Source of the DNA: Bifidobacteriaceae bacterium
GTDB taxonomy: Bacteria; Actinomycetota; Actinomycetes; Actinomycetales; WQXJ01
Reading direction: 5' to 3'
NCBI GenBank assembly: GCA_031267825.1
Contig: JAIRYJ010000017.1
Span: 62,001 to 126,000 of the forward strand
Length of the DNA: 64,000 nt
The first letter of the stretch is position 1; every line of letters starts with the position of its first letter. A model generated the notes under the pieces. The model was given only the letters and a program-made list of their open reading frames with translations, was not told the origin of the DNA and made no database searches. Below are positions 36,620 through 59,109 of this stretch, piece by piece. Made by a program: the position numbers and the translations under genes.

Positions 36620-37426
36620 TTACCAACCGGAGCCGATCAGCTTCTTAGTGGCGAAACCTTTAACTCCACCCAAACCCCGGTAGTAGTAAAGATCACCATT
36701 CGAATCATCCCGACCAACAATGTCCGCCAACCCATCACCAGTCAGATCACCACCACCAGCCAAAGTAAACGCGTTCCAACCATTGCCAGTCCGCACCTTA
36801 GTGTTGAAGGTCCCAGAACCGTTGCCCGTATAGGTGTACAACAACCCAGTCGACCGCTCCACACCCAAAATGTCACCCCGTCGATCACCGTTCAGATCCC
36901 CGGCGGCGTACAGGTCGAAGTTTTGCCAGCCGTTACCGACTTGGACTTTAGTGCCGAACATGCCGTTACCCAGTCCCCGGTACATGTACAACAAACCAGT
37001 TGATTCCTGAATACCAAGCAGATCAGCCTTACCATCACCATTCAGGTCACCTACCGGTATAGCCCGCCAACCAGTCCAGCCGTTACCCATCTTGACTGAC
37101 TGATTAGTTATCCGGCCACCACCCGCACCAGGACGCAAATACAAGTCACCAGTGTTGGTGACATACACCAGATCGGCTTCCTCGTCACCGTTGATGTCCC
37201 CGGGGGCTAGCACTTCACGGCAATCGGTCACCCCAGTGTCGATAATTTCCCTAAACGCCAAAGACCCAACCGCGGTCCCAGCGAAAAGATGAACCTGTCC
37301 GTTCTTATGTAAAGCGATAATCTCACCTCGGTCGTCAGAGTTCATGTCTGGGGAGATCGTGAAAGACCTGTACGTCGGGTCGTAAACGTATGGCGCTCCG
37401 GAGCCAGGACCCGGACTGGTAGCCAC
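36620..37426 (-). pseudogene. FG-GAP/VCBS repeat region, probably the frameshifted C-terminus of the RCC1 protein
   Basis: 268-residue frame of tandem FG-GAP-like calcium-binding repeats: GDLNGDGKADLLG, GDLNGDRRGDILG and GDLTGDGLADIVG, each about 45 residues, ending ...LIGSGW. It has no signal peptide, and its nominal GTG (37426) lies inside the upstream RCC1 frame without a ribosome site. Reading from the RCC1 frame into this one needs only a single shift at about 37395-37430. The natural product would be one secreted RCC1-plus-FG-GAP protein. Independent translation by reinitiation cannot be excluded. Confidence 0.65.
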
Positions 37427-38652
37427 CTGTCCGTGGTGGTGCCGTCACCCAGTTTGCCGTGTTCGTTGCTGCCCCAGGCCCAAGTTTCTCCGGTTCCCGT
37501 CACCGCTAAGGAATAGTTGGCGCCGCCACTGATCGCGGCCGGGCTGGCAAGACCTGGGACCTCGCCCGGTGAGTGCCGGTCGAAGGTACGGGTGCCGTCG
37601 CCAAGTTCACCGTAAACATTGGTGCCCCAGGCCCAGACTTTCCCAGCGCTGGTCACAGCCAAGGTATGACTTGGTCCCGACGATATCGCGGTCACATTGG
37701 TCGGGCTGGGGACTTCAACGGGTGATAGCCGGTTTATGGTGGTGCCGTCTCCGAGTTGGCCGCAGTCGTTGTTGCCCCAGGCCCAGATTTTCCCAGTGCT
37801 GGTGACCGCGAAGGAAGAAAACCCGCTGGTGGCGACTGTGGTTATGTTGGTCAGGCCGGTAATCCCGACGGGCGATGACCGGTTGGTAGTGGTGCCGTCT
37901 CCGAGTTGGCCATGCCGGTTCCAGCCCCAGGCCCAAACTTTCCCGGAGCTTGTCAGAGCCAGAGAAGACGCCACTGCGGCGGCTATATGGCTCACCCCGG
38001 TCAGGCCGGGAACCTCAGTTGGTGAGCCTCTGTCCGCAGTGGTTCCATCCCCGAGTTGCCCGAATCTGTTATCACCCCAGGCCCAAACTTTCCCGGCGCT
38101 GGTCAGGGCCAAAGAGTGGCTGTCGCTGGCAGCGATCGCGACCACGCCGGTCAGGCCGGGCACTTCGGTTGGTGAGCGTCGGTTTACCGCGGTGCCGTCT
38201 CCGAGTTGGCCGTATACGTTGTTGCCCCAGGCCCAGACTCTACCAGCACTGGTCAGGGCCAAAGAGTGTTCGGCGCCGGTGGCTACCGCGGTCACGCTGG
38301 TCAGGCCAGGAACCTGAGTCGGCGCTTGTCGGTTCGCTATAGTGCCATCCCCGAGTTGTCCGGCGTTGTTCCGGCCCCAGGCATAAACCTTCCCGTCAGA
38401 ACCAACCGCTAAGGAGTGGGAATCGCCTGCGGCGATCCGCTGATAGGTCACCTCAGCCAGCGGCGCTGGCGCCGCTGTGAATCGCGGGCCGGTGGGCAAG
38501 GCGTTAGCTGAGGCTGGAAGCGCCAGGCAACAGGCCACCAGCAGGGTGGCCGAAGCCCCGGCTAGAAGCCTGGCCGCCCGCCGGAAAGCGATTCCGCCAG
38601 ACCAACCAAACTGTTGGGAGGTTTTCGATAGTGTTCGGGTGTGATTGGGCAT
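37342..38652 (-). CDS. Secreted RCC1-repeat protein (N-terminal part of a probably frameshifted gene)
   Basis: 436 aa. Signal peptide at about residues 25-50 (ARLLAGASATLLVACCLALPASANA), then seven RCC1 blades of about 50 residues with the pattern WAWGxNxxGQLGDGTTxxRxSPxxVPGL, which should close one beta-propeller. The last blade ends at GDGTTTDRWLPV, after which the frame reads an unrelated 20-residue tail. AGAGG lies about 9 nt before the ATG. The C-terminal FG-GAP region continues in another frame (36620-37426). Function unknown; likely surface or extracellular. Confidence 0.8.
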   Translation of the reverse strand: MPNHTRTLSKTSQQFGWSGGIAFRRAARLLAGASATLLVACCLALPASANALPTGPRFTAAPAPLAEVTYQRIAAGDSHSLAVGSDGKVYAWGRNNAGQLGDGTIANRQAPTQVPGLTSVTAVATGAEHSLALTSAGRVWAWGNNVYGQLGDGTAVNRRSPTEVPGLTGVVAIAASDSHSLALTSAGKVWAWGDNRFGQLGDGTTADRGSPTEVPGLTGVSHIAAAVASSLALTSSGKVWAWGWNRHGQLGDGTTTNRSSPVGITGLTNITTVATSGFSSFAVTSTGKIWAWGNNDCGQLGDGTTINRLSPVEVPSPTNVTAISSGPSHTLAVTSAGKVWAWGTNVYGELGDGTRTFDRHSPGEVPGLASPAAISGGANYSLAVTGTGETWAWGSNEHGKLGDGTTTDRWLPVRVLAPERHTFTTRRTGLSRSPQT

Positions 38653-45500: not shown

Positions 45501-46414
45501 TCAGGGGGTCTCCTCGCCTGTTGTCCCGAGCCGACGGCTTGGAAGCTGATCTCGAGCCACCATTCGATTGTCCGGCCGGGCGATAAGTGAGCCACTTGTC
45601 CGATGGCGGCGGCGTTGACCAAGTTGTCGAAGTAACCGGTCGATGGTTCAATCGCGATCACATCCTGGCGGGCAAAGGCGGCCCGTTCAAACCAGAAACC
45701 AACATAGGGGCAGATCGTCTGGTCCCAGCTAAGCGTCAACTGGTGGCGGTCGCCACGGCGTAAGGTGGCCTGCCCGGTGGGCTGGTCTGGCCGGGCATAG
45801 AACTTACGCACGCCGCCTGGGGCGACAGTATCAATCTGGCTCAGAGCAGGATCCCAGGTCAGGGGGCGGGCCTCGCCGCCCAACACATCGACCACGCCTA
45901 GCGCCAGGCCGGGCGCTTCGATCCGGCTGCCTGGAGGAGCGGCGAACTGCGGGTGGGCCGCCCATAGAAAATCGGCCGCCCGGACAGTACTGGCCCGGTA
46001 GTTGAGCCTGAAGCCGTTCTTGACTGGTTGGACACGGCGGGCCAAATCGGTGCCGAAGGCAGGGTCTTGTGCCGCCCACCAGTCGCGGCCGGCCTGGCGC
46101 TGCCACCGGGCTGTCCAATAGTTGCCGTGATCGTGGACTTGGCGGCCGTCGATCTGGCAAGCCGTGATGCTGGGAGCGCATTCGTCCCAGCCGCACATCT
46201 CAGCTTCGGTGAAGGCGGCGCCAGGCTGGGCTGGTGGCGGCAACGGCAACTCCGGCTGGGTCAGCCATTCAACACCGTCCGGTCCGCGCAGTGAAACGAT
46301 CTTGCCACCCCGTTGCGGCGACCAAACTAGTTGGGCGGTGCCAGATGTCACCGCTTGGGCGTTGAACCCAGCCCAGGGGATTGTTTCGCTGCCTGTGGTG
46401 TCAGGACTGGTCAT
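45497..46414 (-). CDS. Aldose 1-epimerase/mutarotase-like protein
   Basis: 305 aa, galactose-mutarotase-like beta-sandwich fold judged from GGKIVSLRGPDGVEWL near the N-terminus, CGWDECAPSI, and HDHGNYW. The sequence fits the DUF4432/aldose-epimerase superfamily, not classical GalM. It probably interconverts anomers of an internalised sugar or uronate. It overlaps the GH88/GH105-like gene by 4 nt and the pseudokinase reads on from its stop, so it is part of the leftward catabolic operon. Confidence 0.78.
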   Translation of the reverse strand: MTSPDTTGSETIPWAGFNAQAVTSGTAQLVWSPQRGGKIVSLRGPDGVEWLTQPELPLPPPAQPGAAFTEAEMCGWDECAPSITACQIDGRQVHDHGNYWTARWQRQAGRDWWAAQDPAFGTDLARRVQPVKNGFRLNYRASTVRAADFLWAAHPQFAAPPGSRIEAPGLALGVVDVLGGEARPLTWDPALSQIDTVAPGGVRKFYARPDQPTGQATLRRGDRHQLTLSWDQTICPYVGFWFERAAFARQDVIAIEPSTGYFDNLVNAAAIGQVAHLSPGRTIEWWLEISFQAVGSGQQARRPPD

Positions 46415-47538
46415 GATGCCTCCCTCGCGGCCAGTGCCAGCAGGGCGGGTCCCTGCCCCCAGGGCACTCGAAATCCGGTTGGCACGTGAGCGTAGTGGCT
46501 TGGTTCGGTGCAGGCCATAACAGCGGCCGAAACTCCGGCCAGGCAGCCGTCGGGCGTCACCGCCTGGGCCGTGGCGTCCTGGGCCGCCCGGGCGGCCTTG
46601 GCCACGTCAGCCAGACGGTTGTTGGGTATCAGACCTAGGGCTAGGGCGCGTGGCAGACCGGCTCCCATGAAAGCCGCGGTTGAGGTTTCGTCACTGGCTG
46701 TTCGGCCATCAATAACGGCGTACCAGTGGCCGTCGGGCCGCTGGGTCGCGACCATGACGCCGACCAAACGTTCGCAAGCGTTGGCTAACGCGGCGCGCTG
46801 GGCGGCCAGTGGCGGGTCCGGCTGGCCGCTTGAGGCCAGCCACTGATCAACTGAAGTGATCGTGTCAAGCAGGCCAAGCAGAGCCCAGCCTTGTCCCCGG
46901 CCCCAGGCTGGCCCAAAACTGCCGGGCACCGCTTTCAAAACAAAGTGATCAAAACTCCCATCGGCTTGCTGCAGGGCCGCCACCAGCGCCAACGCCTGGT
47001 CAACGCCAGCCCGCAGATAGTGTTGTGATCCGGTGGCCCGCCCGAGCGCGGTCAGGAACGGCGGGTCGAAGTGTAAACAGTCAAGGAAAGCCCCACCTGG
47101 GGGTGCCGCCAGCCAGGCGGCCTGACGTGGGTCGAGTTTGGCTGGGCCGTAGGGCATGGTCAGGGGCGCTCGCGCCCAAGTTTGGTAGACGCCGTTGATG
47201 GTTGGCCGTGACAGCAGGTAATCGGCCAAGGTGACGGCCGCTGTGATGAGTTGGCTGTCACCGGTTCGCAGTGCCAGGTGCACCATGGTTCGGCCCGGAG
47301 CGGTGCAGTCAAGTTCACCCGGAAGCGGCCCGCTTGAGGCCCAGGCCCGCATCCAGCCGTGGGCGAAGGCGGCGTAGGTTGGGTCACGCAGTATGTCCGA
47401 TGCCGTCACCAGAGCTTCGAACGCCACCGAGTCGCCAAATCCCCAGGTTTGGTAGCTCAGATCAAGCAAGCTATCGGCCAGCAGGCGAAGCTTGGCTTGG
47501 TTATCTGGCTCGGGCGAGGTTTTAGGCAACTGTCGCAC
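46411..47538 (-). CDS. GH88/GH105-like unsaturated glucuronyl/rhamnogalacturonyl hydrolase
   Basis: 375-aa (alpha/alpha)6-barrel protein without a signal peptide. Matching features are LDCLHFDPPFL (D153, candidate catalytic Asp), WGRGQGWALLGLLDT and SDETSTAAFMGAGLPRAL. Family members hydrate the 4,5-double bond of unsaturated uronic acids released by polysaccharide lyases. Cytoplasmic location fits action on imported oligosaccharides brought in by the adjacent ABC system. Assignment is to the superfamily; the exact substrate is inferred. Confidence 0.8.
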   Translation of the reverse strand: MRQLPKTSPEPDNQAKLRLLADSLLDLSYQTWGFGDSVAFEALVTASDILRDPTYAAFAHGWMRAWASSGPLPGELDCTAPGRTMVHLALRTGDSQLITAAVTLADYLLSRPTINGVYQTWARAPLTMPYGPAKLDPRQAAWLAAPPGGAFLDCLHFDPPFLTALGRATGSQHYLRAGVDQALALVAALQQADGSFDHFVLKAVPGSFGPAWGRGQGWALLGLLDTITSVDQWLASSGQPDPPLAAQRAALANACERLVGVMVATQRPDGHWYAVIDGRTASDETSTAAFMGAGLPRALALGLIPNNRLADVAKAARAAQDATAQAVTPDGCLAGVSAAVMACTEPSHYAHVPTGFRVPWGQGPALLALAAREAS

Positions 47539-47547
47539 CGCGGTCGC

Positions 47548-48522
47548 CTAGAGCCATTTCAGTTGGGCGGGCTGGACCGCCAAGTCAATCAGGAGCCGCC
47601 CTTTGGTGGCCAGGTCTTCGATGTGGCCGACTACTGGGAAAGCCAAGGCGGTGGCGGACTGGGCTTTAGGCCAGTCACCGATCCGTGGATTCAGTTCAGC
47701 GATCAGTTCTGGCAAGGTTGTTCCGCCCGGTCCGCCCGCCCGCAGGGCGGTCTCCAGACGCCAGCCAAGATCAAGCACAAAAGCTTGCGATTCGGCTAAG
47801 AAGCTGACCACCGCGCTGCCTTCATAAACCCCGTAGTGGGCTGTCGCCAAAATGTCTGGCCGTAGAGCCTGGATCCGGGCGATCGTCTCCAAGTAGGGGA
47901 CGACATGGCGGTAAGTTGGCGGAAACGCTGGTTCGCCTGACGCGGTTGGAACGGCGGCCCCGAGGACGGCATCGGCCAAAATAAGAGCCGCGTTGGCGGC
48001 GTCCCACAACGCTAAATGCCCCAAGGTGTGGCCCGGCAGATGCTGGAACTCAACTGTCCGCCCACCCAAGCTGGCTTGTTCGCCACCCAAGACAAGTTTG
48101 TTTGGCGGCGCTGACCTTGTCACGGCGCGCTGCCATTCCTGGGTGGCTGGTAATTCGGCCAGGCCGTAGATCGCCTCGAAGGGGTTGCCCCGCCCAGCCT
48201 TGTAGGTGGCGAAATCAGCTATCAGACCAGCGTCCGCCGGGTGCGCCACTAGTTGTGCCCGTTTGAAAGCCTGTTGGGAGTCGGCTAAGCCACCAAAGTG
48301 GTCAACGTCACAATGTGATGCCACCACTAGTTCAACGCTGGCCGGATCAAGGTTATGTTCGGCCAGATATGGCAGGACATAGCGCGGGATGGTGCCATCG
48401 ATCCCAGAATCGAACAGGATTGATCGGTCCTGGCCAGCTAGCAGATACAGGTCGCAGCGCCTGGCCGATTCGCCTTCCCCAAGTGGTGTTGTGATGCGGT
48501 GGATGCCGGGAGCTATCTCCAT
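47548..48522 (-). CDS. Metallo-beta-lactamase-fold hydrolase
   Basis: 324 aa from ATG 48522, which follows the enoyl-CoA hydratase stop by 1 nt and has AAAGGA upstream; the open frame to 48588 is not needed. Metal ligands are in SHCDVDHFGG (HxHxDH variant with Cys-Asp in place of the second His position), LPGHTLGH and the later ILADAVLG Asp. Such proteins include lactonases, thioesterases and glyoxalase II. Between CoA-ester genes and a uronate hydrolase, either a lactonase or a thioesterase role is reasonable. Confidence 0.85.
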   Translation of the reverse strand: MEIAPGIHRITTPLGEGESARRCDLYLLAGQDRSILFDSGIDGTIPRYVLPYLAEHNLDPASVELVVASHCDVDHFGGLADSQQAFKRAQLVAHPADAGLIADFATYKAGRGNPFEAIYGLAELPATQEWQRAVTRSAPPNKLVLGGEQASLGGRTVEFQHLPGHTLGHLALWDAANAALILADAVLGAAVPTASGEPAFPPTYRHVVPYLETIARIQALRPDILATAHYGVYEGSAVVSFLAESQAFVLDLGWRLETALRAGGPGGTTLPELIAELNPRIGDWPKAQSATALAFPVVGHIEDLATKGRLLIDLAVQPAQLKWL

Positions 48523-48523
48523 G

Positions 48524-49306
48524 TCAGCGTCCTTTGAACCGCGGTGGACGTTTCTCGGCGAAGGCCGCCCGTCCTTCGGCGGCGTCATCGGTCATCATGC
48601 AGTAGGCGAAGGAATCGTTTTCCACCAGGAGAGCCGCGTCAAGGCCAACATTTTGTGCTACCCGCACCATATATTTGGTGCGTTCAACGGCGATCGGCGG
48701 ACGTGAGGCGATCGTTTGAGCCAGTTTGAGGGCCTCACTTGGCAGGTCTTCCGGTGTGGCCAGCAGTTCAACCAGGCCGATTCGCCAAGCTTCGGTGCCG
48801 TCAATCTGATCGCCGCTCAACAGTAGCCGGGAGGCTTGGCCAGGGCCTATCAGCCGGGCCAGCAACTGGGTCTGGCCGGAACCGCCGTGCCAGCCCCATC
48901 TGATCTCACCGGCACTGAAAGTTGACCGGGCGGTGGCCAGACGGATGTCACTGGCGCAGGCCATTTCGAGGCCTCCGCCGATGCAGTATCCGTCAATGGC
49001 GCAGATCACGGGTTTGCGGATGAGGTGGATCGCCCGGGCGTAATCCCGGCGGGCGTCGAAACGGTTACGGTACTCCCAGTCGCTGCCGTATTGGTCGAGG
49101 TCTGTGATGTCACTGCCAGCGCAAAAAGCGCGGCCTGGGGCACCGGTCAGGATCACCACCCGGACGGTTGAGTCGTTGTTGATTTCAAAGACGAGCTGGT
49201 TGATCCGCTGGTCCATCGCCACTGTCATGGCGTTGAGCTTTTCCGGCCGGTTCAAAGTGATGGTCATGACGTGTTCCTGGTGGGTTACCAGAATCTGATC
49301 GGTCAT
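48524..49306 (-). CDS. Enoyl-CoA hydratase/isomerase family protein
   Basis: 260-aa crotonase-fold protein: RPEKLNAM at the N-terminus, oxyanion hole AFCAGSDI and IDGYCIGGGLEMACASDIR, and a C-terminal trimerisation helix. The putative catalytic Glu lies in SAGEIRWGWHGGSG. It overlaps the CoA-transferase gene by 4 nt, so both belong to one CoA-thioester pathway; the pair recalls CaiB-CaiD type modules, but the substrate is not identifiable. Confidence 0.9.
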   Translation of the reverse strand: MTDQILVTHQEHVMTITLNRPEKLNAMTVAMDQRINQLVFEINNDSTVRVVILTGAPGRAFCAGSDITDLDQYGSDWEYRNRFDARRDYARAIHLIRKPVICAIDGYCIGGGLEMACASDIRLATARSTFSAGEIRWGWHGGSGQTQLLARLIGPGQASRLLLSGDQIDGTEAWRIGLVELLATPEDLPSEALKLAQTIASRPPIAVERTKYMVRVAQNVGLDAALLVENDSFAYCMMTDDAAEGRAAFAEKRPPRFKGR

Positions 49307-50562
49307 CTTGGCCCTCCTGGTTGGGCTGGCGTCAGCGCTAGTCGCGGGGTTGGGCTGGGGGCTAAGCGGACTGCCCCGCCAGCCGCCAGGGAATCGATTT
49401 TGGCTTGAGAGTAGCCGAGTTCTGTCAGGATTTCTGTGGTGTGCTCACCCAAGGCGGGAGCGCCTCGGCTGATGGTGGGAGGAGTTTGTGACAACCGTAA
49501 CGGCGGCCGCACTGTGCGCACAGTGCTGCCATCACTTTGTGACTGGGTTGTGAGCAGACCGGTGGCCTGGACGTGCGGATCGTTCACCACGTCCTCATAA
49601 TCGTAAACTGGCCCGGCCCAGACGCCGTGTTTGTCCGCCAGTTCGATCCATTCGGCGGTAGTCCGGCCTTCAAAGGCGTGACGGACCCGGCGGTAAACCT
49701 CATCGCGGCGGAGTTGGCCATCGTTGTAACGTGTCAGACCGCGCAGCCAATCGTCATCCAGCATTTCGCCCAGGTTTGGCAGTGGTGACATGGCCAGTGT
49801 TAGCCAGCCGTCAGCCGTTTGGTAGACCCCATAAGGTGCCGGTATGGAACCATGAGCTGAGGCTTCAGCCGTCCGGCGTGGTTTACGGCCGGTGTTCAAG
49901 TAGGTCACTAGTTCTTGTAACTGGGCGTCCAGCACAACTGTCAACATGTCAACTTGGACCAGTTGGCCTTGGCCAATCCGCTGGCGGGCGTTGAGGGCCG
50001 CCAAGATGGCGATGACGGCCTGATATCCAGCCATAACATCAGCTGACCAGAGCGCCCCGGGGGCTGGCGGGTCACCGGCGGCCCCAACTGAGAACATTGA
50101 CCCGGAGTAGCCCTGAAGGATCAGGTCCTGACCGGGCCGGTCCCGGTAGGGACCGTCCGGGCCGTAACCGGAGATTGAACAGTAAACCAGGTCCGGGTTG
50201 ATGGCTTGGAGTCGCTGGTAGTCGATTCCGAGGCGTTCGGCTGTACCAGTCCGGAAGTTCTGTAAGAAAACGTCAGCCTGGCGGACCAGGTCCGCCATGA
50301 TCTGGCCGGCCGCTGGGTGTTTCAGGTTCAGCGCCAGTGACCGTTTGTTCCGGTTGACCGCCAGGAAGGTGGTCATCTCGCCAGATACTTGGGCGTCCTC
50401 GAATCCGTGGCTGCGGTTGAATTCGCCACCTGAGGTGGCCTCGATTTTGATGACGTCAGCGCCCAGGTCTCCCAGACGGCTGGCGGCCAGCGGGCCGGCC
50501 AGCATCTGTGTGGCGTCAAGTACCCGTATTCCACTGAGAGCGCCGCCGCTCGGGTTGGGCAT
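49303..50562 (-). CDS. Class III CoA-transferase (CaiB/BaiF family)
   Basis: 419 aa from ATG 50562, where the family N-terminus GIRVLDATQMLAGPLAASRLG begins within about 12 residues; the frame is open to 50721 but that extension crosses the divergent promoter. Catalytic Asp in RPGQDLILQ, nucleotide-binding region DLGADVIKIE, and VDMLTVVLDAQLQ. It transfers CoA between carboxylic acids. First gene of the leftward operon, sharing its upstream region with the sugar ABC importer. Confidence 0.9.
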   Translation of the reverse strand: MPNPSGGALSGIRVLDATQMLAGPLAASRLGDLGADVIKIEATSGGEFNRSHGFEDAQVSGEMTTFLAVNRNKRSLALNLKHPAAGQIMADLVRQADVFLQNFRTGTAERLGIDYQRLQAINPDLVYCSISGYGPDGPYRDRPGQDLILQGYSGSMFSVGAAGDPPAPGALWSADVMAGYQAVIAILAALNARQRIGQGQLVQVDMLTVVLDAQLQELVTYLNTGRKPRRTAEASAHGSIPAPYGVYQTADGWLTLAMSPLPNLGEMLDDDWLRGLTRYNDGQLRRDEVYRRVRHAFEGRTTAEWIELADKHGVWAGPVYDYEDVVNDPHVQATGLLTTQSQSDGSTVRTVRPPLRLSQTPPTISRGAPALGEHTTEILTELGYSQAKIDSLAAGGAVRLAPSPTPRLALTPAQPGGPR

Positions 50563-50621
50563 CGCTGGACCTGCTTCCTGGCTGTTGAGAGCTGACTGGT
50601 TGGGTGTCTCCTCAGCCGGAC

Positions 50622-50660
50622 TTGACGCCCAACCCTGAACCATATAATATGATGATATCA
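50622..50660 (+). promoter_or_regulatory. Promoter and candidate operator of the sugar ABC operon
   Basis: TTGACG (50622-50627) and TATAAT (50643-50648) are spaced 15 bp, or TAATAT at 17 bp. Immediately downstream is the perfect palindrome TGATATCA (50653-50660), well placed for a repressor. The region is divergent: the CoA-transferase gene starts at 50562 on the minus strand. The regulator is not identified. Confidence 0.5.
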
Positions 50661-50697
50661 CGAAACGGTGGCCTTTAGAGCACAAAGGAGCGTTCAC

Positions 50698-52035
50698 ATG
50701 ACAACAACAACCAAGAGACATTTGACCAGTGCGGCCGTAGCCGCGGCGGTCGCTTGCGGTCTGATCCTGACAGGCTGTGGCGATTCAGATGGTGCTGACA
50801 CACCAGGTGGATCCGGCTCAGACGCCACCGGTCCGGTGACGGTCGAGTTTTGGGGCTGGGTACCTGAAATTGAAACAGCCATCGACGCCTGGAACGCCGC
50901 CAACCCGGATATTCAGGTCAACTTCTCACGCATCCCAGGATCATCCGACCTCTACCCGAAGGCTCATGCCGCCGTTCAGGCCGGCAACGCGCCATGCCTG
51001 GCACAGATCGCCTATTACATGATGCCAAGCTTCCTGGCTGACGGTGACCTGCTAGATGTGACGGCTGAAGCGGCCAATTCGAAGTCTGTCTTTGTACCGT
51101 GGACCTGGAACCAGGTGACATTCGGTGGCAAGACTTACGGCATTCCCCAAGACACCGGGCCAATGGTCATGTTCTACCGGACCGACCTATTTGAGCAATA
51201 CGGCATCAGCCCAGCCGCCACCTGGGAACAGTTCGCGCAGGACGCCGCCAAAGTCCACGCCGCCAGCCCGGACATCACCCTGACCAACTTTGGCCCAGAT
51301 CAGCCGGACCTGCTGGCCGCCTTCACCTCACAAGCCGGTGGCCAATGGTGGGAAATGGGTCAAGACGCTTGGACCGTTTCGATCGATTCGGCCGAGAGCC
51401 TGCAAGTCGCCGAATACTGGCAAAACCTGATCTCTGATGGTCAAGTCTCCACTATCAAGCGCTGGGACCCTGAGTTTTACAAGCAACTCGAACAAGGCAA
51501 AGTCCTGGCCCTGGTTGATGCCGCCTGGAACTCAGCTCTGATCGCCTCGAATGAGGAAACCCTGTCCGGCAAGTGGGCCGTTGCCCCAATGCCAACCTGG
51601 GGAAGCTCAGCCACAACCGCCAACTCAGGCGGATCAGCCGTGGCGGTCCTGAAGGGCTGCCAAAACCCCCAGCAAGCGGTTGATTTCGCCACCTGGCTGA
51701 ACTCGGCTGAAGAATCAATGCGAACGCTGGCGTCACCCAGTGGCGGCGGCCTTTACCCGGCCGCTGTGGCCGCACTCGACTACGGCGTGGTCAACCAGGC
51801 CGAACCATTCTTTGGTGGTCAAGTCATCGCTGAAGCGTTCAAAGCCTCAGCCGAACAGGTTGATGTCGACTGGGCGTGGGGACCGACTTACCTAGACACC
51901 AACACAGCCTTGGCGGATGGCTTGGCACGGGTTTCAACGGCTGATCAAACCATTCAAGACCTGCTCAAACAGGTTCAAGCCTCAACTTTGGAGGACATGG
52001 CCAAGAAAGGTATCTCAGCCAAGGCGGCCGGTTAG
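50698..52035 (+). CDS. Extracellular sugar-binding lipoprotein of an ABC importer
   Basis: 445 aa from ATG 50698 with AAAGGAG 7-8 nt upstream. Lipoprotein signal: MTTTTKRHL, a hydrophobic stretch and lipobox LTGC (Cys about residue 24). The mature part is a family 1 solute-binding protein (VTVEFWGWVPE, AFTSQAGGQWW). It captures an oligosaccharide or glycoside at the membrane and passes it to the two permeases downstream. No ATPase is encoded in the operon, so a shared MsiK-type ATPase elsewhere is likely. Confidence 0.93.
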   Translation: MTTTTKRHLTSAAVAAAVACGLILTGCGDSDGADTPGGSGSDATGPVTVEFWGWVPEIETAIDAWNAANPDIQVNFSRIPGSSDLYPKAHAAVQAGNAPCLAQIAYYMMPSFLADGDLLDVTAEAANSKSVFVPWTWNQVTFGGKTYGIPQDTGPMVMFYRTDLFEQYGISPAATWEQFAQDAAKVHAASPDITLTNFGPDQPDLLAAFTSQAGGQWWEMGQDAWTVSIDSAESLQVAEYWQNLISDGQVSTIKRWDPEFYKQLEQGKVLALVDAAWNSALIASNEETLSGKWAVAPMPTWGSSATTANSGGSAVAVLKGCQNPQQAVDFATWLNSAEESMRTLASPSGGGLYPAAVAALDYGVVNQAEPFFGGQVIAEAFKASAEQVDVDWAWGPTYLDTNTALADGLARVSTADQTIQDLLKQVQASTLEDMAKKGISAKAAG

Positions 52036-52068: not shown

Positions 52069-53235
52069 ATGGCCCAAGTGACCCAACGGCCGGGGAGTCA
52101 GGATGGAGGCCGCCCCCATCCTGACTCCCCCGGGCCAGATCCTGATTCCGTCAGACAAGCCGCTGACTCGACGGCGCTGTCCGCCGGTTCCGCTGGTTCC
52201 GCCAGACAAGCCGCCGACTCGACGGCGCGGGCCGCTGGTTCCGCTGGTTCCGCCAGCACCAAGGCATCGCCTCAGCGCCAGAGGCGCCACCTGGTCGAGC
52301 GCCCGGTCCAGCGCCCAGACCGCCACCCAGGCAAGCGCCGGAACCAGCGCCGTCGGCTGAAGCACACCGGCCGGGCGGTGGCGATCTTCACCGCCCCCTT
52401 CCTGGTTTTGTTCCTTGTGGTGTATGTCGCACCAATCATCTACTCGGTAGTCCAAAGCCTGTTCATCAAACAGTCAGACCCACTTGGCCTAGGTGAAGTC
52501 ACCACCCATTTCGCTGGCCTGGACAACTACCGTGAAGTCCTTGGCGATTCGGAGTTCTGGGCATCAATGCGTCGGATCTTGGCTTTCGGTCTGGTTCAAG
52601 TACCAGTCATGGTTGGGATCGCCGTTGGGCTGGCCCTGCTACTCGATTCAGCGGCCGCTCGCGGGGTGCGAATCTTCCGGCTGATCTACTTCTTGCCTTA
52701 CGCCATCCCCGGTGTCATAGCGGCCGTTATCTGGTCCTACCTCTACGCCCCATCACTCAGCCCAGTCGCTGAGATCCTCAAAGCCTTAGGGCTGAGTGTT
52801 GACTTCCTTGGCCAGAGCACTGTCCTGTGGTCGATGGCCAACGTCACCACCTGGTGCTGGACCGGCTACAACATGCTGATCTTCCTGGCCGCCTTACAAG
52901 CCATTCCACGCGACCAATATGAAGCGGCCCGGATTGACGGCGCCTCCGAATGGCGAATCGCTTTCCGCGTCAAACTGCCCCAAATCGGCCCGGCCCTAGT
53001 GCTGTCCGGCACGCTGTCGATCATCGGAACGATTCAGCTATTCAACGAACCGAAGATCCTTTCCCAAGTCTCAACCGCTGTCTCCAGCGGATACGTCCCA
53101 ATGATGTTCGCCCAGCATGAGGCGTTCATGAACAACAACATCAACTACGCGGCGGCCATCTCAGTGGTGATAGCGCTGATCGCCGGTGTCCTGTCCCTGG
53201 TGTTCTACCGTGCGACCAACAGGAGAGCCCAATGA
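52069..53235 (+). CDS. Sugar ABC transporter permease (MalF/UgpA type)
   Basis: 388 aa. Residues about 1-100 are a hydrophilic Ser/Ala/Pro/Arg-rich extension with a short duplicated Ala/Ser motif (ADSTA..AGSAGSA), longer than usual. Six membrane segments follow, with the EAA loop YEAARIDGASEWRIAFRVKLP that contacts the ATPase. AGGA lies about 8 nt before the ATG. It overlaps the next permease gene by 4 nt. Confidence 0.92.
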   Translation: MAQVTQRPGSQDGGRPHPDSPGPDPDSVRQAADSTALSAGSAGSARQAADSTARAAGSAGSASTKASPQRQRRHLVERPVQRPDRHPGKRRNQRRRLKHTGRAVAIFTAPFLVLFLVVYVAPIIYSVVQSLFIKQSDPLGLGEVTTHFAGLDNYREVLGDSEFWASMRRILAFGLVQVPVMVGIAVGLALLLDSAAARGVRIFRLIYFLPYAIPGVIAAVIWSYLYAPSLSPVAEILKALGLSVDFLGQSTVLWSMANVTTWCWTGYNMLIFLAALQAIPRDQYEAARIDGASEWRIAFRVKLPQIGPALVLSGTLSIIGTIQLFNEPKILSQVSTAVSSGYVPMMFAQHEAFMNNNINYAAAISVVIALIAGVLSLVFYRATNRRAQ

Positions 53236-54140
53236 CATCCAACCGCTCCGCCGTTAGCACCAGACCCAAAGGCCGCCAATCAACCGCTAAACCCAGGGGT
53301 ATCACTCCGCGCAACGGACCAAGTGTGGTGGTAACTCTGGCCGTATTGGCCCTAACCTCGGTTTACTTCCTGGCACCGGTCTGGTGGTTGCTGATCTCCT
53401 CAACTAAATCCAACGCCGGCCTGTTCAGTTCCTCCGGACTGTGGTTCGGGGAATTCAAACTAGGCGACAACCTGCGTGACGTGTTCTCCGCCACTGGGGG
53501 CTTGTTCCCACGCTGGCTCGGCAACTCACTGTTCTACGCCGGACTGGGCGGCGCCCTAGCCACACTGTTCGGCACCGCCTGCGGCTACGCCATCGCCAAA
53601 TACGAATTCCGCGGCCGTGGTTTGCTGTTCGGCTGCATCATGGCAGGTGTGCTCCTACCGGGAGCATTGCTAACCGTGCCGCTATACCTGCTGTTCTCCG
53701 GGGCTGGACTGGTCAACACCTACTGGGCGGTCCTGATCCCAGCGGCTGTCAGTCCCTTCGCCGTCTACCTGGCCCGAATCTATGCCGCCGCATCCGTCCC
53801 AGATGAACTGATCGAAGCCGCCCGGGTCGATGGCGCCGGCGAAGTCCGGATCTTCAGCACGATCGCTCTGCGGTTGATGTCACCAGCTTTGGTGACCATC
53901 TTCCTGTTCACCTTTGTCGGCATCTGGAACAACTTCTTCTTGCCGCTCATCATGTTGTCCAATGAACGCCTCTACCCAGTTACGCTGGGCATTTACGGCT
54001 GGTACACGGTTACTCAGCACGCCACCTATGCCATTGTGATCACCGGCTCGCTACTGTCAGTCATACCGTTGGTGATCGCTTTCCTGTCATTGCAGCGTTT
54101 CTGGCGGTCAGGCCTGGCAGGCGGTGGCGTCAAAATATGA
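53232..54140 (+). CDS. Sugar ABC transporter permease (MalG/UgpE type)
   Basis: 302 aa, six membrane segments, EAA loop ELIEAARVDGAGEVRIFSTI. Partner of the preceding permease. Its stop overlaps an ATG in the following frame (54137), but the real next start is probably 54215. Confidence 0.93.
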   Translation: MTSNRSAVSTRPKGRQSTAKPRGITPRNGPSVVVTLAVLALTSVYFLAPVWWLLISSTKSNAGLFSSSGLWFGEFKLGDNLRDVFSATGGLFPRWLGNSLFYAGLGGALATLFGTACGYAIAKYEFRGRGLLFGCIMAGVLLPGALLTVPLYLLFSGAGLVNTYWAVLIPAAVSPFAVYLARIYAAASVPDELIEAARVDGAGEVRIFSTIALRLMSPALVTIFLFTFVGIWNNFFLPLIMLSNERLYPVTLGIYGWYTVTQHATYAIVITGSLLSVIPLVIAFLSLQRFWRSGLAGGGVKI

Positions 54141-54214
54141 TCCGCCCGTCCAACACGGCCGCGGGCCGCCATTCAACGGCCGCTCAGGCGGCCGCGACAA
54201 CTAAGGAGACCCAG

Positions 54215-56494
54215 GTGAAGGTTGAGGCCGACCGCTGGCTCGAAATTGATCTGTACTGGTTTGACCGTGATGACATCGCCGGGGCGGTGCGCCGCTTCTG
54301 GGAACGTTGCGAGCCGCTACTGGTCGGTGTGACCGGTTGGCGCGGAGTCATAGTGAACGCTGGCTGGCTGGTAGACCATGTCCTCGGCTGGAGTGGCGAC
54401 CTGGACCAGCCGGTCCCGTTCCCGCCTGGTCTGACAGCTGACAAGTTCTTCCCTGACCGGGCAGCGCTGCGAGGCACCACGGCCCAGCGTCAAGCCGGCT
54501 GGCGGAGCCGTTTCGCTGATCGCGGAAGGCGGGCGGACCTGGGCTACCAACCATGGACGTACCGTGACTTGGGACGCTTGGCGGACCTGCTGCGCGGCAT
54601 CGGCCAAACCGAATTTGGTATCAGCGGGCTCAAAGTTGGTGTCTTTGTGCTGGGCTGGGATTCAATTTACGGCCGCGAACCGTCCGCTTGGTCGGCCCGG
54701 CACCCTGAGGCGTTCTTCGCCGGGCCTTGGCATGACCAACTGTTCAACGTCGCTGCCCGTCTTCAAGCCGACGATGCCGTCTACGCGGCTTTTCCGGACG
54801 GCATAGTTCCGGGGACCCCAGTAACACGCTTCTTTGGTCGCCAGTGGGGTGAGCTTCGACGCCAGGTTCACCTGGACGCCATAGTGCTGCGTGATTCGAT
54901 GATTGGCCAGGGAATCTATGAACGGGTCGGGCCTTTCGGTGAAACCGCCTCACCAGACCCTGAAGTTGTCCAAGAATGGAGTGACGCGACCGGCGAACTG
55001 ATCCGGCAGACCAAACTGGCGGCGCCAGAGGCACTGGTGATCGGCTATTCCAACGCGGCCAGCGCGGTGGCTGACTGGCGGGTGAACTGCGTTGACTTGG
55101 AATCGATCGCCCATCAAGGGTTCCTTGACGCCTGGATTGACCAGACTTGGGCTGGCGCCTGGAATGAAGTTGGGCAACGCGAGAACACCTTCTGGAATGA
55201 GCCGCTGCTGGGCTGGACCAATCAGCTTGGCTATGTTCTGGGCCATGCGGTCGCCCTGGCCGGGACACCAGTGCGCCATTACACGCTGGCGGAGACGTTT
55301 GACGCTTGGGAATCGTGGGACATCATCCATACCGCACCGGCCCGTCTGCGCTGGGGTATTTGGGCTTACCTGCATGCCTTCCTGCTAACGCCGGATGGTT
55401 TGAAAGCACCAGCTGGGACGTATGTGTCGTGGATGAATCAGGGTTCCAGGCTGCTTGAGGCTGAAGATGTTGAGTTCTTGGCTGACACCATCAACCAGGC
55501 CACAGTTGACGCCCGGCGGACCGTGGTGGTTCACGGACCGGTCGCGGTCTACTGCCGCGAGGCGCTGGCCTGGGCCAGCCGCCACCAGCCGGACCAGACC
55601 ATGAAGGAATGGATCGATGAGCAGATCGGCTGGTTAGCCAAGTATTCGCTACCCGTGACAGCCATTACGCGGGCGGAATATCTCGCTTCGATCCAAGCTG
55701 ACCATTTGATTGTTCAGACCCCAGTTCATTTGCCGGATGATCAGCGGGACTTGTTGCTCCGGCGGATCAGGCGGGGTGATCCCACCATGGTGGTTGGTTC
55801 ACCTGGTCCGGGTGTTGACCGGTTGATCGCTGAGGCGGCCGGGTTGATCAGTGCTGACAGCGCTGTTGGACCAGTCAAGACGGTTGCTCACTTGGGCCCC
55901 AGCCTCCGGCCGGGGGTTGACGCTGGGCTGGAGGGTGGTGATTTGCCGGAAGAGTTCAGCATTGTTCAACCTTGGACCGCCAACCAGGCGGTTGGCGGAG
56001 CTGAGGTGATCTATCAGGTGGATGGCTCCCCGGCGCTGGTCCGGCGCGACTTGATCAGCTCATGGGATCCGCCAGAGGTGATCCACCGTTCCGTCAGCGA
56101 TCTGGTCGGAGGTCACGGCGGGCCACGCGGCGACCTGTCAATGACTCAGCGGCTCGGTTCGCCCTATGGTGTGTTGCTGGCCGCCGCTGAGATCATGCGG
56201 GCGCTCAAACTGACTGGCCGGATCGCGGCGGAACCGCTAGAGGCCACCTCGCCGGTCGCGATGAGCGCCTGGACCAGGGACGATGCCGTCACAATGGTTC
56301 TGCTGGGCGAACTGGAAGAAGGTTTCCGCGAATCAACCGAAGGCGACTGGCGCCTGACTGTTACTGGCCTGGGTGAACCGTTGGAGGTCTGCTTGAGCTA
56401 CGGCCAAAGCCAGCTTTACGCGGTCGGTTCAGACACTTCAGGTTCGGTCAGGATTGTGCCCAAATGGGCGGAAGGTTCTGACGTCGATTCTTGA
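54215..56494 (+). CDS. Large protein of unrecognised family, candidate glycoside hydrolase
   Basis: 759 aa from GTG 54215, chosen because AAGGAG lies 6 nt upstream and the protein then starts MKVEADRWLEIDLYWFDRDD; ATG 54137 overlapping the permease is the alternative. No signal peptide or membrane helix. Alternating segments such as GVIVNAGWLVDHVLGW, LKVGVFVLGWDSIY, ALVIGYSNAASAVADWRVNC and ENTFWNEPLLGWTNQLGY suggest a TIM barrel with several candidate acidic residues, followed by a glutaminase-like middle domain (about 440-600) and a C-terminal beta region. I do not recognise the family. Position after a sugar importer argues for intracellular cleavage of the imported compound. Its last 79 nt overlap the convergent PH-domain gene. 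Confidence 0.7.
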   Translation: MKVEADRWLEIDLYWFDRDDIAGAVRRFWERCEPLLVGVTGWRGVIVNAGWLVDHVLGWSGDLDQPVPFPPGLTADKFFPDRAALRGTTAQRQAGWRSRFADRGRRADLGYQPWTYRDLGRLADLLRGIGQTEFGISGLKVGVFVLGWDSIYGREPSAWSARHPEAFFAGPWHDQLFNVAARLQADDAVYAAFPDGIVPGTPVTRFFGRQWGELRRQVHLDAIVLRDSMIGQGIYERVGPFGETASPDPEVVQEWSDATGELIRQTKLAAPEALVIGYSNAASAVADWRVNCVDLESIAHQGFLDAWIDQTWAGAWNEVGQRENTFWNEPLLGWTNQLGYVLGHAVALAGTPVRHYTLAETFDAWESWDIIHTAPARLRWGIWAYLHAFLLTPDGLKAPAGTYVSWMNQGSRLLEAEDVEFLADTINQATVDARRTVVVHGPVAVYCREALAWASRHQPDQTMKEWIDEQIGWLAKYSLPVTAITRAEYLASIQADHLIVQTPVHLPDDQRDLLLRRIRRGDPTMVVGSPGPGVDRLIAEAAGLISADSAVGPVKTVAHLGPSLRPGVDAGLEGGDLPEEFSIVQPWTANQAVGGAEVIYQVDGSPALVRRDLISSWDPPEVIHRSVSDLVGGHGGPRGDLSMTQRLGSPYGVLLAAAEIMRALKLTGRIAAEPLEATSPVAMSAWTRDDAVTMVLLGELEEGFRESTEGDWRLTVTGLGEPLEVCLSYGQSQLYAVGSDTSGSVRIVPKWAEGSDVDS

Positions 56495-57969
56495 GTCGCC
56501 GCCATGGCGGCCAGCAGTAGCTGGGACTGCCCGCGCGCTAGTTGAGCCGCGTCATCGGCCGCCAAATGGTAGATCGCCGGTGAAATCGGACCGCGAGCCG
56601 AATGGAAACGCACGTTAGCTAGTTCGAGTCGGCGTTCCCAAGGGCCTTGACTCAATTCGATAGCTTGAATCCGGGCGTGCGGCACAACCTGAACCCGCCG
56701 GATCAGCAGGCCACTGCGCAAGATGAGCGCGTTAGCGGTCACACTGTAGGCCGTCCGCCGCCAGGTCAGCGGGTCAAACAGGCAGGCCTGGCGGGGCGCG
56801 CGACTGAATCCCGGGGTCGGGCCGGAGGTGGTCAAAGCTGATTCGATTAGTCGCCAAACTCCGTCCTGAGCCAAGCTCGGAGCGACCGCCCAGATGGCCC
56901 GTCGGATTGTCTCCGCATCCGCCACCGGCACCAGTAGCTGGCCGTCACCGCTTTGCCCCGAATCGTAACCGGCGACATTCATTTGGGCTCGCCACCAGTG
57001 GAAACCCCGCCAAGGCAGGCTCTGGGTGAGCTGGACCGCCAGAATCCGGCCAGGCGGGATGGTCTGCGAAACGCGGGTTGTCAGTCCGTGGCTTAGGGTC
57101 AAGCCACGGCTGGTCTGTTTGGCGGTGAAAGCGAAATCAGTTGTCAGCCGTGACCACAAACTGGCTACGGCGCCCAACAGCCAGGGCAGCAGGGCACCCA
57201 AGGCGACTGGTGAATTGGGTAAGACTGCGGCCACGATCCCAGCGATCAGTAACGGAACACCCCACATGCCAACTGACAACATGATCGAACCGAGCACCCG
57301 CCCGGTCGGCACCGCGAAAAGCTCTGGAGCTTCCAGATCGGCGTCTCCGAGCATCTCGCCAACCTGGGTTTCCTCAGACTTGAGGGTGAACTGGCCAGCC
57401 CCCAGGCTGGCGGTTAGCCCCACACCATCCGCGGTGCCCGGCCCGCCCTGACGGGCCTGAAGGGCGCGCGACAAAATCGCCCGTCGCCATCGTGCGGCGT
57501 CAGCTTGGCGCAAGTAAGCCAACTCAATCGCTGAACCCGCCCCACCAGCCGATTCGACCTTCAACTTGACCAGCCCAAAAAGACGCCCAATCAGCGGATG
57601 TATAACATCAACGGCCTGGACTCGGTCAAGTGGCAGGTGGCGGCGCTGGCGAAAGATGATCCCCTTGGCGAGCTGCAAAGTGGTGGCATCAACCCGGAAG
57701 TGAGCGTGGCGCCATGACAGCCAGGCACAGAGCAACACAATCAAAAGCAACACCAGCACGCCTAAACCAAGCCAAACGAACTGGTCCGGCCGGTTAAGTT
57801 CACGCCAGAAAGCCAAGAACCAGCCTGTCGAATCGCCGATCGAGTTGATCGCCACAAGCACCAGAGCGACCAGCCCAGCCCAGGCCCGCAAGAACGGTGT
57901 CAGTGGGTGAAATCGGATCCAGTCATCGCTCTGACCAGCTTCCGCGACTGAGGTCGGCCGCGTCTTCAC
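56416..57969 (-). CDS. PH-domain membrane protein (YdbT-like)
   Basis: 517 aa. Two N-terminal membrane helices (about 30-48 and 68-85) precede a bacterial PH domain (FRVDATTLQLAKGIIFRQRR, PLDRVQAVDV). Two more helix pairs alternate with PH-like segments (LTLSHGLTTRVSQTIPPGRI; ALILRSGLLIRRVQVVPHAR). This matches YdbT, which with its YdbS partner encoded just upstream affects bacteriocin resistance in Bacillus; the role here is unknown. The 3' end overlaps the convergent carbohydrate gene by 79 nt. Confidence 0.85.
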   Translation of the reverse strand: MKTRPTSVAEAGQSDDWIRFHPLTPFLRAWAGLVALVLVAINSIGDSTGWFLAFWRELNRPDQFVWLGLGVLVLLLIVLLCAWLSWRHAHFRVDATTLQLAKGIIFRQRRHLPLDRVQAVDVIHPLIGRLFGLVKLKVESAGGAGSAIELAYLRQADAARWRRAILSRALQARQGGPGTADGVGLTASLGAGQFTLKSEETQVGEMLGDADLEAPELFAVPTGRVLGSIMLSVGMWGVPLLIAGIVAAVLPNSPVALGALLPWLLGAVASLWSRLTTDFAFTAKQTSRGLTLSHGLTTRVSQTIPPGRILAVQLTQSLPWRGFHWWRAQMNVAGYDSGQSGDGQLLVPVADAETIRRAIWAVAPSLAQDGVWRLIESALTTSGPTPGFSRAPRQACLFDPLTWRRTAYSVTANALILRSGLLIRRVQVVPHARIQAIELSQGPWERRLELANVRFHSARGPISPAIYHLAADDAAQLARGQSQLLLAAMAATQESTSEPSAHLGTILTEPEVSEPTA

Positions 57970-58508
57970 AGGCCGGCCATCCGGGCGTTGCCGCGTTCGG
58001 CTAGCCGGTCACGTAGCCGGGCGGCCGCATCAGGTTCCAGTCCAGGCAGTGAAGCGTTAAGTGAGCCAGCCGCGGTGTTCAGCGTCAAAGTGGCCAAACC
58101 GAACTTGCGGTCGACTGGCCCAGCCGCCACATCCAAGTACTGCAACCGCCCATACGGCACCACCGTCAAGCTGCGGAACAACAGTCCCTTGCGGATGATC
58201 AAGTCATCAGCTCGCTCAACGTAGCCGATGGCTCGCACCCGGCGCCAAACCAGCGCGCCCAGCCAGCTGCCAAGCGCCACCCAGCCAGCTACCAGCCCGC
58301 CAACCCACCAGGCTCGGGTCGCGACCATGGCGGCCAATCCGCCGATGCCGACCGGAGCGAACAAGATAACCGTCACAGCTAGGCGCAACTTGGCTAGTTT
58401 GGGGCTGACCCGCTGCCAGACCAGGTCAGGTGGATCAAATATCGGATCACCTTTAGCGCGGCGCGGCGCGGTTTGGGGTGGCACGGCCTGGATAGGTGCG
58501 GGGGTCAT
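57966..58508 (-). CDS. PH-domain membrane protein (YdbS-like)
   Basis: 180 aa. Two membrane helices (about 38-60 and 65-85) followed by a bPH_2 domain (ERADDLIIRKGLLFRSLTVV, PYGRLQYLDVAAGP). It overlaps the YdbT-like gene by 4 nt; the two are a conserved pair. Confidence 0.87.
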   Translation of the reverse strand: MTPAPIQAVPPQTAPRRAKGDPIFDPPDLVWQRVSPKLAKLRLAVTVILFAPVGIGGLAAMVATRAWWVGGLVAGWVALGSWLGALVWRRVRAIGYVERADDLIIRKGLLFRSLTVVPYGRLQYLDVAAGPVDRKFGLATLTLNTAAGSLNASLPGLEPDAAARLRDRLAERGNARMAGL

Positions 58509-58581: not shown

Positions 58582-59109
58582 GTGCGCTTTGAACTGCTAC
58601 TTGGAGATATCACCAGACAAACGACGGACGCGATTGTCAACGCGGCCAACTCTTCACTGTTGGGCGGTGGCGGCGTTGACGGCGCGATTCACCGCGCGGC
58701 CGGCCCAGAGCTACTAGAACAGTGCCGCGAGTTACGCCGCGAGCAATTACCTGACGGCCTGCCGGTTGGACAGGCTGTGGCCACAACAGCTGGCCGGTTG
58801 GCCTGCCGCTGGGTGATCCACACAGTTGGGCCAAACCGGCACGCCGGGCAAACCGACCCAGCCCAGTTGCGCGACTGTTTCACTCAGTCACTGAAGTTGG
58901 CGGATCAGCTTGGCGCCAAGTCAGTGGCTTTCCCGGCGATTGGTGGTGGTGTTTACGGCTGGACACCTCAGGGAGTCGCCCAAGCGGCGCGCCAGGCGCT
59001 GAGCCAAGTTTCAACAGAGGTTGAACTGGTCCGTTTGGTGCTATTCAGCCAAGCGATGCTGGGCGCTTTCGCCGAAGCCTTCCCGGATGCGCCGGGCGCT
59101 GCTCCCTGA
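58582..59109 (+). CDS. Macrodomain protein (ADP-ribose hydrolase, MacroD/YmdB-like)
   Basis: 175-aa stand-alone macrodomain. ADP-ribose-binding cues are IVNAANSSLLGGGGVDGAIH and FPAIGGGVYGWTP. Enzymes of this type hydrolyse O-acetyl-ADP-ribose and mono-ADP-ribose on proteins or nucleic acid. The start is GTG 58582. It lies 33 nt upstream of the Type ISP restriction-modification gene on the same strand, so co-transcription is possible, but macrodomain genes are also common housekeeping genes. Confidence 0.9.
   Translation: MRFELLLGDITRQTTDAIVNAANSSLLGGGGVDGAIHRAAGPELLEQCRELRREQLPDGLPVGQAVATTAGRLACRWVIHTVGPNRHAGQTDPAQLRDCFTQSLKLADQLGAKSVAFPAIGGGVYGWTPQGVAQAARQALSQVSTEVELVRLVLFSQAMLGAFAEAFPDAPGAAP

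Follow-up and report, generated by a model that had tools for sequence, protein, structure and literature searches.

A candidate glycoside hydrolase family encoded at the end of a sugar-uptake operon in a Bifidobacteriaceae bacterium

The gene and its operon

The subject of this report is a gene in a 64,000-nucleotide stretch of contig JAIRYJ010000017.1 (positions 62,001 to 126,000 of the forward strand; assembly GCA_031267825.1) from a Bifidobacteriaceae bacterium, which we call the window and number from its first letter. The open frame at 54215–56494 on the forward strand encodes a 759-residue protein that is glycosidase-like to judge from the frame, its relatives, their alignment and structure models, and it is the last gene of a sugar-uptake operon consisting of a lipoprotein sugar-binding protein, two permeases and the enzyme. 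An initial annotation, made from the letters of the sequence, had proposed a 759-residue frame with a strong ribosome site at GTG 54215, preceded by two sugar permeases. Both points hold: the frame is open, the ribosome-binding site AAGGAG (54203–54208, forward strand; read from the sequence) stands 6 bases 5' of GTG 54215, and the two preceding proteins match BPD_transp_1 with E-values of 1.6e-15 and 8.7e-17. The longest mechanically called frame begins at ATG 54137 (785 residues) and overlaps the stop codon of the second permease; we rejected this start, which would put 26 extra residues before the conserved start. GTG 54215 is the better start because a DRW-EIDLYWF block lies near the N-terminus of the relatives in the alignment, and one relative (L001; relatives are cited by such locus numbers) begins exactly at this block.

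All four genes of the operon lie on the forward strand. The lipoprotein sugar-binding protein (SBP_bac_1, PF01547, E 3.3e-34) occupies 50698–52035; its start was set at ATG 50698 in preference to GTG 50668, and its N-terminus shows, by eye, a hydrophobic stretch followed by an LTGC lipobox. The first ATP-binding cassette (ABC) sugar permease, at 52069–53235, and the second, at 53232–54140, both belong to PF00528, and their nearest NCBIfam models, GlcT/UgpA and GlcU/UgpE, respectively, are matched below cut-offs. The genes are tightly packed, with the permeases sharing 4 bases and 74 bases separating the second permease from the enzyme gene. Ahead of the operon lies a promoter-like TTGACG...TATAAT with a 15-base spacer (50622–50648, forward strand), which is a consensus match only; alternative scoring gives TTGACG-17-TAATAT at 50622–50650 with 9 of 12 consensus positions, and four sites of such score were found between 50550 and 56600 on both strands, against 1.4 expected. 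The operon contains no ATPase gene, and the rest of the genome yielded a single MalK-type OB domain.

A rare family outside Pfam and NCBIfam

When the species-genome collection was scanned for six peptide patterns, a procedure that finds close relatives only, 13 loci were returned: 12 clear relatives, with 39–53% identity and tblastn E-values of at most 1e-59, and the remnant L013. The relatives come from Actinomycetota, Armatimonadota, Verrucomicrobiota, Acidobacteriota, Bacteroidota and Pseudomonadota, and the alignment of 11 full-length proteins from the six phyla (A1), in which the partial L008 and L011 were omitted and L013 was set aside, contains 116 invariant columns. The family is real, rare and widely scattered. 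Among 59 genomes around the window's own, it occurs in the window genome itself and in no other, and across the class, 2 of 296 genomes gave matches at E<=1e-10, namely the window genome and one with a distant sister. Sampled groups around five relatives, searched at E<=1e-20 with the best three to five candidates scored per genome, contained only the seed genomes and three more distant proteins (1 of 247, 4 of 201, 1 of 249 and 1 of 248 genomes, and the seed plus L031 among 288); these scans drew on genome samples, and known carriers in the sampled phyla, such as L005, L006, L008 and L011, were undrawn or missed. Carriage on plasmids was rejected after no match was found in 72,556 plasmid records, and viral carriage after 10 pattern matches in viral contigs included no confirmed relative, a phage collection lying outside this search. 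In L008 (8001–9524), similarity is lost in frame after residue 452, through a frame break or an assembly error. L013 (8001–8153) is a 23-residue remnant in the Terrimicrobiaceae genome M30B24, which also has the full copy L003.

The initial annotation had regarded the protein as a candidate for a new glycoside hydrolase (GH) family and had named a hidden Markov model search of Pfam as a check. At E<=1, the window protein matches no family of Pfam (24,736 models) or NCBIfam (18,950 models), and at E<=10 it matches no PDB sequence; profiles built from A1 and from the barrel alignment described below (A2) retrieved unrelated PDB chains only, with best E-values of 0.16 and 0.092. Pfam scans of the 11 full-length members placed an F5/F8 type C domain in two (best E 2.8e-17); weak matches to three unrelated families, at E 0.02–0.19, occurred in one member each. 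L002 and L012 carry an insert after approximately position 550 (window-protein numbering), between the middle and C-terminal domains, and this agrees with the match of two members to the carbohydrate-binding-like F5/F8 type C domain. These searches support the proposal of a new family, which keeps the rank of a candidate, as it is judged on absence from Pfam and NCBIfam, with CAZy models outside the comparison. Pfam lags behind CAZy, and the family might therefore be a recently created CAZy family that has as yet no Pfam or NCBIfam model and is known but unrecognised. We consider this unlikely, but by no means far-fetched: the searches covered Pfam, NCBIfam and PDB sequences rather than CAZy models, yet the two profiles met only unrelated proteins among the PDB sequences, and a search of the literature, made by text and not by sequence, gave no published family with these traits.

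A second, larger family stands beside this one. In the phylum of L003 (Verrucomicrobiota), a profile search at E<=1e-8 identified 37 of 288 sampled genomes. In 35 of them the match was a distant sister, mostly in an open frame of 700–920 residues; the other two were the seed and the genome of an intermediate protein (L031, E 3e-76). The sister loci (L032–L059 and L016) carry the N-terminal motifs LE[LI]S.KPF and DGSEIL. Sisters were fetched from 28 of the 35 genomes, those of the remaining 7 being classed by score alone. The alignment took in 27 of the 29 fetched sister loci (L042 and L053 were dropped as short), and 26 entered A2 (L034 is nearly a copy of L033). A2 covers the barrel in 41 rows, with 12 family members (L008 added), three intermediates and these 26 sisters. 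In hhalign, whose E-values here are those of single pairwise comparisons, the family matches the sisters with a probability of 99.9 and E 6.7e-32 over 689 columns, and the two are therefore homologous along nearly their whole length. In the barrel tree, the family and the intermediates split from the sisters at 100/100 support, the window protein groups with the one from Phytohabitans (97/96), and the three intermediates branch within the family, their long branches being marked as unsure by the program. The five sisters and one intermediate that were scanned all stay below the curated cut-offs of Pfam and NCBIfam; a GH42 middle-domain match in one sister has E 0.26.

Predicted fold and candidate catalytic residues

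The barrel guessed at in the initial annotation is borne out by both AlphaFold models, one of the whole protein on the 11 full-length sequences (predicted local distance difference test, pLDDT, 79.2; predicted template-modelling score, pTM, 0.87) and one of the barrel on the 41 sequences (pLDDT 86.3, pTM 0.90). The predicted (beta/alpha)8 barrel spans residues 1–435 (54215–55519) and has eight strands (6–12, 43–48, 139–146, 222–226, 274–278, 306–309, 354–360 and 389–392/401–405) with alternating helices; the carboxylates that such a barrel was expected to present end predicted strands 4, 6 and 7. The models place behind it a Rossmann-like middle domain of approximately residues 436–545 (55520–55849), bounded by secondary structure and comparable to the GH42 trimerisation domain, and a C-terminal beta domain of approximately residues 578–740 (55946–56434), in which residues 623–641 have a pLDDT below 50.

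Structural comparison of the whole model gave its best rows with barrels only, Cwp19 (Z 19.1) and PgaB (Z 16.3). Along the whole length, the model matches GH42 (5e9a; Z 15.0, root-mean-square deviation (rmsd) 5.5, 541 aligned residues), the GH151 alpha-L-fucosidase ALfuk2 of Paenibacillus thiaminolyticus (6tvk; Z 14.6, rmsd 4.9, 535 aligned) and the GH164 beta-mannosidase (6t6g; Z 14.3, rmsd 5.4, 530 aligned), all at 8–11% identity. In the barrel-only comparison, Cwp19 (GHL10) came first (Z 23.6, 303 aligned, rmsd 4.0) and PgaB (GH153) second (Z 19.9, 294 aligned, rmsd 3.5), followed by GH42 (17.6), GH66, GH151 (17.5), GH168, GH36 and GH18 at Z of approximately 16–18, of which GH66, GH168 and GH36 lie close to 17, together with the GH156 exosialidase 6s04 (Z 16.7, rmsd 4.0, 308 aligned). 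Glycan-active barrels thus dominate the matches of the predicted fold, though not exclusively, and the fold singles out no one family.

Each of these likenesses has its limits. GH42 shares the barrel, the trimerisation (Rossmann-like) domain and the C-terminal beta layout, but this likeness is at the level of fold only (Foldseek TM 0.47), and the window family has no PF02449 match in Pfam at E<=1 and ends beta4 with Arg-Asp rather than Asn-Glu. PF02449 is missing from the window genome and was found in 12 of 24 genomes searched. By hhalign, the sisters match GH42 in the middle/C-terminal region (E 1.4e-5, probability 80) and the pooled superfamily does so at E 3e-4 (probability 39), whereas 14 family and intermediate rows gave no match to 12 GH42 proteins (probability 0.4); this regional likeness belongs to the sister family and not to the window family, for which membership in GH42 was rejected. 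GH151 likewise shares the order of barrel, Rossmann-like and beta domains, and a His from the neighbouring subunit completes its active site; its identity to the window protein is 11%, and 6tvk was not among the matches of either profile in PDB sequences at E<=10. Cwp19 and PgaB have approximately 10% identity, no Pfam match, a different biology and matched structures that cover the barrel only; GHL10 in particular was not matched by the window protein in Pfam at E<=1 and is absent from the listed matches of the 11 members. The likeness of GH164 (8% identity) is one of fold, and GH156 (14%) carries an Asp on beta1, with putative catalytic equivalence.

Three carboxylates at strand ends are candidates for catalysis in the models. 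Asp227 (codon 54893–54895) ends beta4 (strand 222–226) as the proposed catalytic carboxylate; it is Asp in all 12 family rows and all three intermediates and Asn in all 26 sisters, and residues 226–227 read Arg-Asp in 11 of the 12 family rows and Lys-Asp in L008. Asp309 (codon 55139–55141), the proposed acid/base at the end of beta6 (strand 306–309), is Asp in 11 and Glu in one (L003) of the 12 family rows. The alternative partner Glu360 (codon 55292–55294) ends beta7 (strand 354–360); 11 of 12 family rows retain it and L007 has Gly, and the sisters show a gap there. According to PMC10154630, the nucleophile of GH151 is an Asp that ends beta4 and its acid/base a Glu that ends beta6; the candidate residues of the window family resemble this arrangement in both positions and differ from it in that the acid on beta6 is Asp (Glu in one member). 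Judging by conservation, we lean towards Asp227 with Asp309 over Asp227 with Glu360, because position 309 tolerates an Asp-to-Glu swap in L003 whereas position 360 is Gly in L007.

The pairing of Asp227 on beta4 with Glu360 on beta7, as in GH42 and PgaB, which would suit a beta-linked or N-acetylated sugar, nevertheless deserves weight, and we regard it as improbable but a serious competitor. Glu360 is retained in all three intermediates, which have lost Asp309, and the PgaB barrels score above GH151 in structure (Z 19.9 versus 17.5). The account of the Cwp19 structure in PMC5765458 describes GH42 and PgaB as using beta4 and beta7 residues, names PgaB Asp466/Glu607 and GH42 Glu161/Glu320 as equivalents and places the key Asp of Cwp19 and PgaB on beta4. 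On the other hand, L007, with its Gly, is an otherwise typical member, and the beta4 end is Arg-Asp instead of the Asn-Glu of GH42.

An inverting mechanism with Asp12 (beta1) as base and His163 as acid would follow the GH156 exosialidase, whose Asp14 and His134 are, according to PMC6811678, base and acid of an inverting enzyme. GH156 is among the structural matches of the whole model (Z 15.6) and of the barrel, model residue 4 is aligned to residue 6 of the GH156 chain, which would bring Asp12 near Asp14, and Asp12 is present in all 15 family and intermediate rows and His163 in 39 of 41 rows. However, Ser replaces Asp12 in every sister in which the column is present (25), Thr stands at the His163 column in L060 and L061, the structural alignment is known by its range ends only, the equivalence of His163 and His134 is a guess, and Cwp19 and PgaB fit better; we judge this mechanism quite unlikely. 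Least probable of all, to our minds, is that the barrel has lost catalysis and serves as a sugar-binding or regulatory protein, an idea that the variation of strand-end carboxylates among the three groups would suit but that sits poorly with an invariant Asp227 and an Asp or Glu at position 309 in all 12 family rows, which span six phyla and include exported as well as cytosolic members.

Proposed role and genomic surroundings

The Phytohabitans relative has the same gene order as the window, binding protein, permease, permease and enzyme, and the other 11 loci gave no tblastn match to the window transporter genes at E<=1e-4. A MalK-type ATPase gene lies near the copy in L010, and TonB/Sus-type receptors occur in 5 of 11 loci (L004, L007, L009, L010 and L011). 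The flanks of 8 of the 12 relatives contain carbohydrate enzymes or sulfatases, a count made without a random-locus control on the part of the neighbour genes that was scanned with Pfam: GH13 near L001, GH28 near L002 and L012, GH95 near L003, GH88 near L005, GH31 near L006 and L011, GH2 near L007, and sulfatases near L002, L003 and L006. Although the neighbours are mixed, the sulfatases near three members, GH95 near one and GH28 near two suggest plant or algal glycans that are acidic or fucosylated. Naming the sugar from the catabolic genes of the window genome was tried and rejected: uronate isomerase PF02614 was not found, and fucose isomerase PF07881 appeared below cut-off only. The gene at L011:6521–7540 reads like a LacI regulator.

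N-termini that resemble signal peptides by eye are present in 9 of 10 didermal relatives (L004 was set aside, its start being unreadable), so that the enzyme appears to be exported in most of them; by eye, none is present in the window protein, L001 or L003. The window and Phytohabitans proteins are probably cytosolic, because they show no such peptide and their genes stand behind an importer. A cytosolic enzyme behind an importer in monoderms and an exported one in didermal bacteria would be expected of an exo-glycosidase acting on oligosaccharides. The starts of L002, L011 and L012 include SRR[KQ]FI ahead of a hydrophobic stretch and, by eye, resemble a twin-arginine translocation (Tat) export signal.

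Taking these observations together, we propose, with the chances about evenly balanced, that the window protein is a cytosolic, exo-acting and retaining glycoside hydrolase of a family absent from Pfam and NCBIfam, which clips imported oligosaccharides with Asp227 and Asp309. The lipoprotein sugar-binding protein and the two permeases would import an oligosaccharide, presumably powered by an ATPase encoded elsewhere, and the enzyme would remove a terminal, possibly alpha-linked, sugar inside the cell. It would most probably do so by a retaining double displacement with Asp227 as nucleophile and Asp309 as acid/base, as is reported for a GH151 alpha-L-fucosidase. If the protein is active, it would found a new glycoside hydrolase family whose operon can reveal the substrate, that is, the ligand of the binding protein.

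Several observations weigh against this proposal. Asp309 is replaced by Thr in all three intermediates, where Glu360 is kept, and both Asp227 and Asp309 are Asn in the 26 sisters. Glu10 is present in 40 of 41 rows (the exception being a trimmed row) and Asp363 in all 41; since these two are kept throughout and Asp227 and Asp309 are not, the superfamily may have its catalytic pair at other positions. Pyruvate kinase takes one row of 50 in the barrel-only comparison (Z 16.3), the Foldseek barrel list also has N-acetylneuraminate lyases, ene-reductases and lipoyl synthase, and the query-side TM-scores from Foldseek are below 0.5 in the 50 rows shown for either model; with non-glycan barrels among the matches and such scores, the fold alone is no proof of a glycosidase. 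The active-site loops are the least confident parts, with pLDDT below 50 at residues 238–241 of the barrel model and at 317–328 and 365–369 of the whole model. Finally, neighbouring genes differ between loci, and the 48 that were scanned with Pfam, a part of the total, have no random-locus control.

On a broader scale, we tentatively suggest, with rather less confidence than we give to the window enzyme itself, that the window family and its larger sister family constitute one new glycoside hydrolase superfamily. Its GH42-like three-domain scaffold would have had the beta4/beta7 Glu pair replaced, around a shared Glu10 and Asp363, by an Asp-based, GH151-like beta4/beta6 set in the window family and by a different, Asn-bearing set in the sisters. 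Activity of the window protein would open up this superfamily, for which 35 of the 288 genomes sampled in one phylum gave matches and whose tested members fall below Pfam and NCBIfam cut-offs. The exchange of Asp and Asn on beta4, and of Asp, Thr and Asn on beta6, between the groups makes the movement of catalytic residues on one scaffold testable.

In the window, the operon is flanked on its upstream side by a divergent set (46411–50721, reverse strand) encoding a family III CoA-transferase, an enoyl-CoA hydratase, a metallo-beta-lactamase-fold protein and a GH88 protein, after which come a 305-residue protein without a Pfam match and a two-component system. Metallo-beta-lactamase-fold genes lie beside the window operon and also beside L007, and a link through them was considered; the two proteins have no mutual match at E<=1e-4. 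At the other side (56416–58508, reverse strand, and 58582–59109, forward strand), two genes for bacterial PH-domain proteins (bPH_2) run towards the 3' end of the enzyme gene, which they overlap by 79 bases as called, and a macro-domain gene is next. Proteins with FG-GAP repeats and RCC1 repeats are encoded nearby, at 36620–38652 on the reverse strand.

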